Shown here piece after piece: positions 10,583 through 14,130 of a DNA stretch of 64,000 nucleotides. The stretch is from Nannobrachium achirus (taxonomy: Eukaryota > Chordata > Actinopteri > Myctophiformes > Myctophidae): NCBI GenBank assembly GCA_963921795.1, contig OY997639.1:49591395-49655394 (forward strand), read 5' to 3'. The notes under the pieces were generated by a model, which was not told the DNA's origin, made no database searches, and saw nothing but the letters and a program-made list of their open reading frames with translations. The position numbers and the translations under genes were made by a program. How positions within the stretch are numbered: the stretch's first letter is position 1; every line of letters starts with the position of its first letter.

Positions 10583-13500
10583 TCAGTTGACAAAACGGCA
10601 GTCCTTTATTTCATTTGTCGAGTTGATGTTGAGGTGACCGGCAAGCTCCTGCGTCACAGCATCCCTGCCGATCTGATCGTTCCTTCTCTTTTCCATGATC
10701 ACGTCTTCCAAGCTCTGAAACTCCAGGACGTGACTCTTCTTTTCGGAGAAGAGCAACTTCAGCCTGTACGGCTGTTTGCCAATCCGTATCTCTCCACCGA
10801 TTTTAAACTCCCGTTTGCCATACCGACACCAGGCAGCGAAACACTCAGAGTTTCTCCAGCACAGGTCACCGTCTCTGACCCCGACCTGGTCCAGCGCGCT
10901 GCGCGCAACCACCTCCGCGGAGAGCGCGCGGTACCTGTAGAGCCCGTTCACGATCCTGCCCTTCCTGCCCTGGCTCGCGTAGGTCAGCACGTCGCTCTTG
11001 ATCTCGGCCCGGTGCAGGTGCACCACCTGGACAGTGGTGGAAAAAGTATTACATTTAAATAAGTAAAAGTATCAATACTGCCATATAGAAACACTACAAG
11101 TAAAACTCCAGAATTCAAAATGTGCTTACCGGTAAGTAAAAGTATGAAAGTATTGGCTTGAAAATAGCAGATCTACAAGCTCACAACACATTGTGACACA
11201 TTGTGAGCTTGTAGCTCAGCTATTTTCAAATAGCCTGAGTATAAAATAGGGCTAAAGTGGTTAATGTATGCTTTATAATATTATAATTTAGGTCTGCAAA
11301 CTAGTAACTAAAGTTTTCAAATAATTGTAGTGGAGTTAAAGTAGGCATGCCACGAAAAAACAAGGTAAATCTTTGAAAATGTTTGGCAAAAATGTTGATG
11401 ACGTCATGGTGCACCCGTACTGTACCATAGTTATAATGTACTGTACCTACTACCTACAATGTACATTCTCTTCCCATGGCCCGGTTGCACAGAAAGCAAC
11501 AGAAAGCAACTTCCTCTGCTCGCACAGGGCTACTGGGCTAGCACTAAAGCTAAAAACACGAAAATGTATATAAATCTGTGCATATAAAAATTATATTTCC
11601 ACACAAATCTGGTTGTTACATTCCCATTGTTCATGAGAATATGTTTGTTTATGTTTATTTGTTGAAAGGGCGGAATCGCTAAAATTCACCGAGAGGGGAT
11701 GTTGCCTCTGGCCGGGCAGCGGGGCACTAAAAGCGGGGGGCTTGCTACCTTTTTCCGCCCGCTCTCCGTAGTGCGGTCGTGTCAGCGGCACTATGTACCA
11801 GTAAGATAAGCGACCGTCAGGTCGTGTATGTATACACAAATTGGCCATAGCAACCTCATGGTGGCACTAGAAGAGGGGCATGTGAGAAATCAGGGGCGGA
11901 GGTTGTGGTTTGCCAGCCAATGAGTGTGTCTGCAAAGTTTGGAGATGAGAGTAGGGCCAAAAGTGTGACATGGCGGACAGACTGCCTGACTGACAGACAG
12001 CCGGCGGAGGTTTTCATAGTAACTTGCGATTTGATGGTCGCAACAATATTTGCCTCTGAGATGTAGTGGAGTAGAAGTAAAAGTAGGCCTACTGAAAATT
12101 GGCTCCGTTTACACAATGCTACCCCCTCCTCCAAATGTAAACGTTCCCCATTTCCAACTGTTATTTATTTCTTAGGGAGGGGTCGTTTTTTATTGAGGGG
12201 TGTTACTGGAGAAAATGTATAAGCCCTTTTATAAAATGCCATGACCCTCCCTCTCAATTGGGGAAAAAATCAGTGACCCTCCCCAAGCATTAAAATAAAA
12301 AAGATTGACCCTCCCCTACAACATGGCATTTACCACAGTAAAATTATGCCTATAAAACCTATATTATTATATTCCTAACCAGTGGCAAGAACAGAACAGA
12401 GATTTTTTTCTTTCTTTCTTTTTTTACTGTAAATAATTAGGATTTTTGTTATGGTTAAAAACGGGTGCGGGCGGCAGCAGCAATGAACAATAATGAATAG
12501 GCTAATATAATGCATTGAGATCCCAGCTGCACTTCATCCCAAAAACACATTTCCAAATATAAACTAACACACCCTCCAAACTAAAGTAACACACAGTGAG
12601 TAGCCTATAGTGCTGCTAGTGTAAAAGTCAACGTGGACATCACATAAAAGGTGAGAAGTTCTCACAGGTTGAGAACAGGTTATTTGACATCTAGGTTACA
12701 GATTAAACAGTTGACACATGTGCACAACACAGAGAAGGCTTGTAACTGCTGCCATTCATTTTGTGCTGTTGATTGCCTGTCGTCAAATCTGGGTCAAATG
12801 CGCATTTTCAACGAGCGGTCGTTAATTCTTTTTAGCACCTTTTCACTTTTTGCTTTAGGGAGGGGGGATACAGTTCTGACAACCATTGTTTCTGCCTTAC
12901 ACAGCTCTCCATTGTTTTAGGAAAATACATTGTAGTATAAACACAGCCACTTCAGTTCATTCACACTAACTGCAGTGACTGTGGGGCATTTCCAGGGATG
13001 GCACCCAGGGTTTGTCATTAAATGAAGCAGAAGGCTGTTGACAATGGTTGCATAAGTGCCTGTACCTCTGGAGCCATTGTTTGCTTTTGAAAAATTGCAT
13101 GACCCTCCCTTGAATTCAAAGTGAAATCAGCAGACCCTCCCTAGGACTGAAATTGAAATAGCATGACCCTCCCCTATTTTCCTCCAGTAACACCCCTCAA
13201 TAAAAAACGACCCCTCCCTTACTATATTTTGAGTTTGACACTTGCTTTGGCAATGTAAACTATAGCTATACGGTATGTTTTCTCATATCAATAAATTACA
13301 GCTCCTTTGAATTGCTTTACACCAGTGGTTCCAAAACTTTTTAGCTCGAGACCAAAAAGAGTATTAAGACGTTTTCCCGGGACCCAAACTAGTGAAAACA
13401 GCAGATCTACAAGCTCACAACACGTCGCTTCGTGCCGTGTTGTGAGCTTGTATATCGGCTATTTTCACTACTTCGTAAACATTTGTTTTCTAATTCATGG

Positions 13501-14130
13501 AATTCTTTGATGAAATTACAGGGGAAAAAATTATCGAATTTTGTTTTTGAAAAAACAAGCCTTCGGCTGGTGGAGACAAAAAGCTTTTTTGAGGAATGTT
13601 TTTTTTTTAATATTTAGAATAATTTAAAAAAAATAAGGGACCCATAAAACTTAGTCTGCGACCCACAAATAGGTCCCCGACCCATTGTTTGGGAACCAGT
13701 GCTTAGTTTACAGTCACCACTGCACCTGGAAGTCTCCCACGTACACGACCCAGTGCGGGTACTGCCCGCCGGCCACGAACTCCACCAGGTCCCCCGGCCG
13801 CAGCTTGTTCAGGAGACTTTCAGCAGAGTACAGCGCGTCCGAGTCCCTGCCCGCGGCATGTCTCTCGTACACGCACTCCTCGCGGTAGTAAACCACGCAC
13901 TCCAGCTCGTTCTGCGGGTCGAACGGGACGTCGTCCTCCTGCTCCCCCGGCAGCCTGGGGCTGTCGGGCGGCATGTCAAAATGCTCCTGCTCGTCGTCGT
14001 CGTTGGAGAAGATGTAGGACACGCCGATGCGTGGGACTCCTCCGTCATCGTCCGGGTCAAATCCGTTCGGGTCCGACGTGGGAACTTCGGCGTAACTTAA
14101 ATGAGTGAGTTTTTCCACCTGGTTTCCCAT
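10583..14130 (-). CDS. lratd2: LRAT domain-containing protein 2 (FAM84B), two coding exons
   Basis: Exon 1 is 14130-13726 (135 codons, phase 0) and exon 2 is 11026-10583 (147 codons plus stop), giving 282 aa; human LRATD2 is about 310 aa. The protein begins [13 protein letters not shown], the family start, and Gly2 could be N-myristoylated. The ATG at 14130 is chosen over a longer in-frame ATG at 14265 because of the family start and because a good 3' splice site (pyrimidine tract ending ttgcag) lies at about 14142, implying an upstream untranslated exon. An acidic region (residues about 15-75) precedes the LRAT/NlpC-P60-like fold: PHW with His126, VVHLH with His138, and [12 protein letters not shown] at 194-205. 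Active LRAT enzymes have NCEHF here, so the catalytic Cys is Ser195, as in other LRATD proteins, and the protein is probably not an acyltransferase. The function is poorly known (cell motility and morphology roles are proposed). The coding sequence is uninterrupted in mammals; here it is split by a transposon. Confidence 0.93.
12175..13218. mobile_element. Non-autonomous element with TTA target duplication (Harbinger-like), nested in the lratd2 intron
   Basis: The ends are inverted repeats: GGGAGGGGTCGTTTTTTATT at 12175 and its reverse complement ending at 13218, continuing through ...GAGGGGTGTTACTGGA on each side (about 40 bp). TTA flanks both ends (12172-12174 and 13219-13221), the usual PIF/Harbinger target duplication. 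The second half repeats 'gaccctccc' motifs. No transposase is visible; open frames inside have no recognisable similarity. Confidence 0.7.
13323..13701. mobile_element. hAT-like MITE, CAGTGGTTCC type, nested in the lratd2 intron
   Basis: It starts CAGTGGTTCCAAAAC and ends GTTTGGGAACCAGTG, with the 'gggaccca' subterminal motifs seen in related copies at 14812, 56649 and 58802. It carries the dispersed short palindrome at 13392-13468. The target duplication is unclear, so the exact ends may be off by a few bases. Confidence 0.7.

Follow-up and report, generated by a model that had tools for sequence, protein, structure and literature searches.

Intron gain has been described as rare in vertebrates, with a higher intron turnover reported for teleosts, and transposon-like sequence is found in introns 3 and 5 of the slc26a2 gene of notothenioid fishes (Torii et al., 2025, PMC12357937). 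The intron insertions of fish melanocortin receptors are a further case of newly gained coding introns among ray-finned fishes (PMC3151243). On a genomic scale, introners are mostly non-autonomous DNA transposons, some with a target-site duplication (TSD) and terminal inverted repeats, and their splice sites are supplied by the TSD, by the element, or by both. A survey of these elements reports introners in two groups only among animals and land plants, both of them animals, and no evidence for a pattern of gain where populations are expected to be small, as in parasites or vertebrates (Gozashti et al., 2022, PMC9860276). An insertion model based on AGGT duplication predicts precise intron gain, and the transposon entry of the article concerned comprises 35 events in Oryza, Drosophila, Oikopleura, and Zea, with no vertebrate in that entry (Yenerall and Zhou, 2012, PMC3443670). 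Here, we describe the lratd2 gene of the myctophid fish Nannobrachium achirus, the coding sequence of which is interrupted by a hAT-like element within a stretch of 64,000 nt (contig OY997639.1; hereafter the window), together with related cases in the assembly from which this window was taken (1.66 Gb).

From sequence comparison, we consider it highly likely that a hAT-like insertion gave rise to a spliced intron in lratd2, and a second hAT-like family, a miniature inverted-repeat transposable element (MITE) with TAGGG ends, appears to have repeatedly made introns in the same genome. An earlier note on this DNA had treated the lratd2 intron on its own; the case now looks like one of several, as other hAT-like insertions that resemble coding introns are present in the assembly. 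Together, the introns of lratd2 and of the TAGGG MITE would point to introner activity in a fish.

The split lratd2 gene and its inserted element

All positions are those of the window, in which lratd2 is encoded on the minus strand (Table 1). The coding sequence is split at two copies of TCCAGGTG, which are identical at 8/8 positions and each contain AG|GT. The earlier description of a gene divided exactly at an 8-bp duplication, with an octamer usable both as donor and as acceptor, thus held in all its letters and coordinates. The predicted intron has its GT beginning at 13725 and its AG ending at 11027, and its 2,699 bp equal the element (2,691 bp) plus one 8-bp duplication. When the two coding pieces are joined, an 849-bp coding sequence for 282 aa results, with ...VGDFQ|VVHLH... 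at the junction. A spliced alignment guided by the Lampris LRATD2 protein returned the same single intron, 13725-11027, in phase 0 and with no stop or frameshift, in agreement with the proposal that DFQ and VVHLH are joined with nothing gained or lost; the aligner, which was written for this analysis, tends to predict short introns that are implausible where the match to a locus is poor. If the intron were retained, translation would stop after ...GDFQVQW.

Across the junction, the joined protein can be aligned with 22 relatives of LRATD2, taken from the 120 listed among 348 matches, and its LRAT domain (residues 109-207, E 1.6e-13) crosses the junction at 135/136. The protein deviates at 6 of the columns in which the other sequences are conserved to 90% or more, the corresponding range being 0-12 for the 22 chosen relatives. 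To our knowledge, other fishes and mammals have no intron in the coding region of LRATD2. By inspection only, a possible 5'-untranslated-region intron of lratd2 was noticed at 14527-14351 on the minus strand (GCG|GTGAGT...TTATAG|GCA).

The ends of the element, CAGTGGTG...CACCACTG, form short terminal inverted repeats of the CAGNG/TAGNG type that is typical of hAT transposons. The element is labeled hAT-like from the duplication length and these ends, and it is read as non-autonomous. Its 3' 126 bp are repeated in the genome, with 40 scored matches, itself included, of 1,313 candidates. Among 29 other copies of this family, called X, seven have a CAGTGGTG-like 5' end and a perfect 8-bp duplication, three have a duplication with one mismatch, and 19 had no matching end within the fetched stretch. 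A 493-bp consensus was built from ten copies taken as full length, two of which fit it poorly (29% and 32% different). The lratd2 copy aligns to this consensus at 1-21, 97-139, and 139-493, and the gaps are filled with other sequence, in part recognizable insertions. The nested insertions announced in the earlier note are present as foreign sequence inside X, next to an open frame of 282 codons, and the pyrimidine tract that it ascribed to the end of the element is found in the 3' end of X. One of these insertions, at 13323..13701, is itself hAT-like: its 5' end shows 6/77 differences from a six-copy consensus, and no clear duplication was found around it.

These features can be assembled into a simple mechanism. 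A hAT-like transposon of ~0.5 kb would have inserted into the lratd2 coding exon at TCCAGGTG, and because this transposition duplicates 8 bp, AG|GT would have come to lie on both sides of the element, as the duplication displays today. The spliceosome would then take its donor from the left copy (CAG|GTGCAG) and its acceptor from the right copy (...TACTTTTTCCACCACTGTCCAG|GTGG), so that splicing would remove the element and one copy of the duplication and restore the original lratd2 mRNA. Later insertions inside the element, visible in the sequence, would have stretched the intron to 2.7 kb with the reading frame unaffected.

The age of the insertion argues for such splicing. Between the lratd2 copy and X, 22/304 positions differ (7.2%), besides several indels, a count that covers the alignable pieces and leaves out the palindrome and X 22-96. 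After an equal time, a neutral 849-bp frame would have a probability of 0.13 of containing no stop, and of ~5e-4 (3 indels/304 bp) to 2e-6 (6 indels/304 bp) of containing neither stop nor frameshift. Because the element decayed to this extent while the 849-bp coding sequence stayed open, the intron is very probably spliced, in keeping with the earlier view that the insertion is spliced out rather than destroying the gene. Most simply, the intron would have been spliced from the outset, with selection on the protein continuing throughout. The intron is thus very probably a hAT-derived spliceosomal intron, of a kind already known and seldom reported in vertebrates.

Table 1. Features of the lratd2 locus, in window positions.
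Feature	Position	Strand	Remarks
lratd2 coding exon 1	13726..14130	minus	ATG at 14130, 405 nt, ends ...GACTTCCAG
lratd2 coding exon 2	10583..11026	minus	starts GTGGTGCAC..., runs to stop
Predicted spliceosomal intron	11027..13725	minus	2,699 bp, phase 0, GTGCAG...CCACCACTGTCCAG
TSD TCCAGGTG, left copy	13723..13730	minus	carries donor AG|GTG
TSD TCCAGGTG, right copy	11024..11031	minus	carries acceptor CAG|G
Short hAT-like element of family X, consensus of 493 bp	11032..13722	minus	extended to 2,691 bp by sequence that arrived later
X 5' end, consensus 1-21	13702..13722	minus	begins CAGTGGTG...
hAT-like insertion CACTGGTTCCCAAA...TTTTGGAACCACTG	13323..13701	minus	right end by inspection
Stretch between 42-bp inverted ends, 98% complementary	12174..13219	minus	read as nested element
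X consensus 97-139	12043..12085	minus	alignment to X
699 bp without match to X, at X consensus ~139	11344..12042	minus	read as third insertion
X consensus 139-493, 3' end ...TACTTTTTCCACCACTG	11032..11343	minus	source of acceptor pyrimidine tract
Palindrome belonging to X consensus	11158..11229	minus	alignment to X
Stretches matched to no family	13220-13322, 12086-12173	minus	gaps in X alignment

A second hAT-like family in coding sequences

The second hAT-like MITE has the ends TAGGGGTGGGCGATATGG...CCATATCGCCCACCCCTA, which likewise fit the CAGNG/TAGNG type. The pattern CAGG|TAGGGNTGGGCGATA occurs at 117 sites in the genome, and the same pattern read backwards at 1. With this family, a duplication of ...CAGG followed by TAGGG would create the donor CAG|GTAGGG, and the acceptor would be the second CAG|G or, in one case, TAG|G.

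A first batch consisted of 20 of the first 23 listed sites, the site at locus L095 and two sites 2.6 kb apart being left out. The far end and the duplication lay inside the fetched stretch at 9/20 sites, and they were recovered downstream for five further sites with a coding-looking left flank. Seven of the 20 sites are in coding sequence and six join in frame, five of these in apparent host genes and the sixth (L104) in a transposase-like frame. The 8/8 duplication abuts the element end in four in-frame joins: L107, where the insertion lies from RING to B-box; L112, in a WD40 gene; L110, with no Pfam domain and a long frame on joining; and L104, a piggyBac-like transposase (E 0.0018, below the cut-off). 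At L113, which likewise has no Pfam domain and a long frame on joining, 3 extra bases lie between the 8/8 duplication and the element. At L117, where olfactomedin is matched over the joined sequence (E 7.8e-47), the duplication is 7/8, with 5 extra bases and the acceptor CTTCTAG|G. In both L113 and L117 the register was chosen for the matching duplication, and the same register fits the protein. At L114, a keratin with the Filament domain to the right of the insertion, splicing at the duplication would put the rod out of frame. Both ends were found, and no frame through the joined flanks, at L099, L100, L101, L103, L108, L111, and L115; six sites (L098, L102, L105, L106, L109, and L116) were left without an assigned outcome. 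Among the coding cases, the MITE is present in both orientations, as judged by inspection.

If 2-5% of the genome is assumed to be coding, seven or more coding sites out of 20 would be expected by chance with P 8e-8 to 3e-5, and six or more with P 2e-6 to 3e-4. The coding share of the MITE was compared with this assumed fraction and with family X only, neither being matched for the duplication. In a similar test on both families, an open frame was present in the 150-bp flank of 13/29 X copies, chosen regardless of duplication, vs. 17/20 CAGG sites. Ten translations from 9 of these 13 open-flank X copies yielded a single DUF match, which lay on a repeat and fell below the cut-off, and no other match. 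Fisher's test yields P 0.0009 for 7/20 vs. 0/29 and P 0.003 for 6/20, with unscanned copies counted as non-coding and with families that differ. A further 20 of the next 22 listed sites (L123-L142) formed a second batch, of which the left flank only was taken and ten translations were scanned. One clear domain was found there, a butyrophilin-type Ig (L125, 7.6e-11), along with one FG-repeat match below the cut-off. The remainder were long open frames without domains, and the Pfam evidence is weaker than in the first batch.

Other candidate introns

Junctions were also graded by a score in which an 8-bp duplication and 12-bp inverted ends are looked for around a GT/AG pair. Its null distribution, from 1,500 random GT/AG pairs of the fetched loci (random pairs, not real introns), has a mean of 11.0, a 95th percentile of 13, a 99th percentile of 14, and a maximum of 17. 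Among 40 junctions scored, three lratd genes included, 35 reach 14 at most. The highest scores are those of L054 (20), lratd2 and L060 (16 each), and L053 and L065 (15 each).

Connexins and galactosyltransferases are mostly single-exon coding genes, and a wider survey of intron gain was based on 157 connexin and 118 galactosyltransferase matches in the genome. Twenty connexin loci with the domain in pieces were examined, of which L070 and L071 are perhaps mere interrupted frames or loops, as were four galactosyltransferase loci out of eight chosen, further split-looking loci being left out. In connexin L054 (C15:56570000-56572000), GGTGACGT is duplicated around TAGGGGTGGGCGATATGG...CCATATCGCCCACCCCTA, with perfect ends and an 8-bp duplication, and the predicted splice is GAG|GTGACG...CCCTAG|GTGACG; on these features, the locus reads as a textbook case of a transposon-made intron. 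Its paralogue L053 (C15:56543900-56546300) carries a different TAGGG-ended element at the same coding site. Locus L060 has TAGGG-type ends and, by eye, the duplication CATCCAGG with four extra bases, CATC, beside the right copy; its score comes from another register (6/8 and 10/12) than this reading. The galactosyltransferase-like L095 scores 13, the 95th null percentile, and is kept as a candidate because its 5' end resembles that of the L054 MITE.

Two further observations were made in these gene families. Connexin L058 (C16:41642700-41645200) has a 1,167-bp intron with a 13-bp flanking repeat, CAGGTCCGTCTGT, and a score of 14, which looks like gain by tandem duplication instead. Nine galactosyltransferase-domain matches with identical scores and a spacing of ~4,560 bp form a tandem array on a small contig (C449:1352-38387).

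The paralogues of lratd2 are also interrupted. The lratd2a-like paralogue (L009:2619-5209, in C10:33522500-33530500) has a coding intron of 1,739 bp in phase 2, bounded on both sides by CAACAGGT (8/8) and with a TAGGG-like start; used as a genome query, this start gave three matches including itself and no clear family. The lratd1 gene (L016:2025-6761, in C16:10427500-10436500) consists of three coding pieces, and its intron 2, with a 7-bp flanking repeat (CAGGTCA) and a score of 11, lies at the Q|V position homologous to that of the lratd2 hAT intron. A transposon origin of the lratd2a and lratd1 introns is only possible, the former being kept at that level because its score of 11 equals the null mean. 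X and the lratd2a and lratd1 introns share a short palindrome, GAAAATAGC..GATCTACAAGCTCACAA..., which is found in the window at 11158-11229 and 13387-13473. A retrocopy of spliced lratd2 was looked for by a protein search of the genome, and the six matches belonged to lratd2 (two), the C10 paralogue (two), and lratd1 (two), with no spliced copy.

Alternative explanations

Several observations weigh against a spliced, transposon-made intron in lratd2 and against the wider reading. The lratd2 intron is the sole one known from family X, and the insertion may look older than it is should this copy come from a diverged subfamily, since its age is read from the distance to the consensus. A few residues of the joined protein are unusual, such as L in place of C at a site that hardly varies, and the donor CAG|GTGCAG departs from the donor consensus at +4 to +6 and is weak after +3. 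The score is not decisive on its own at ~15-16 because L065, a connexin junction not read as hAT, reaches 15 without hAT-like ends; the lratd2 case is carried by the exact 8/8 duplication together with membership in family X. For the TAGGG MITE, extra bases stand next to the duplication in two of the six in-frame joins, and another of the six falls in a transposase-like frame, which lowers the odds of introner activity by hAT-like MITEs in a vertebrate. From the sites inspected, such activity nevertheless seems probable, one family having made tens of coding introns, in either orientation, through TAGGG plus CAGG, and others such as that of lratd2 adding more.

The weak donor would also suit an insertion that inactivated lratd2, leaving a dead or polymorphic gene with open frames as leftovers, and the C10 paralogue could cover the loss. 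This is improbable: the element has accumulated 22/304 substitutions and further insertions, yet 282 codons contain no stop or frameshift, conserved sites are kept as in relatives, and the AG|GT of the duplication stands at the very offset that restores the frame. The shared Q|V position of the lratd1 intron raises another explanation, namely that an older spliceosomal intron was merely invaded by the hAT element. However, had the element landed inside an older intron, some of that intron would remain outside the duplications, whereas here the element and one duplication account for the whole intron, which makes this explanation very improbable indeed. Partial splicing, or the use of extra splice sites, with variant or truncated proteins as the outcome, overlaps with the preferred account of a spliced hAT-derived intron, and we regard it as unlikely. 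The donor is weak at +4 to +6 and retention leads to an early stop, but only the AG|GT offset restores the exact protein, and the spliced alignment prefers the same offset.

Comparison with known systems

Clean transposon-made introns in several genes are unexpected for a vertebrate. If the present account is true, this genome, in which some copies still have intact ends and duplications, would make it possible to measure in a vertebrate how new introns arise, how efficiently they are spliced, what they cost, and how they become fixed; it would also bear on the higher intron turnover reported for teleosts. A literature search, with most subscription papers and preprints outside its scope, found no genome-scale introners in a vertebrate among the titles listed, and one gene-level teleost precedent was found, the notothenioid slc26a2.

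The lratd2 intron resembles that precedent in being a teleost coding intron made of transposon-like sequence. The notothenioid element NTE-1 has 4-nt repeats and the ends tgt...aca, whereas the lratd2 element is hAT-like with an 8-bp duplication, and the notothenioid study, in the part considered here, treats one gene and not one family making introns in many genes (PMC12357937). Like the melanocortin receptor introns, that of lratd2 would be a new coding intron in a ray-finned fish (PMC3151243). It fits the precise gain predicted by the AGGT model, in a vertebrate host, unlike the genera of that model's transposon entry (PMC3443670). Finally, the fish elements are similar to introners in that DNA transposons with a TSD and terminal inverted repeats would make many introns; unlike in the introners surveyed, as far as the survey is drawn on here, the host is a fish and the TSD measures 8 bp (PMC9860276).

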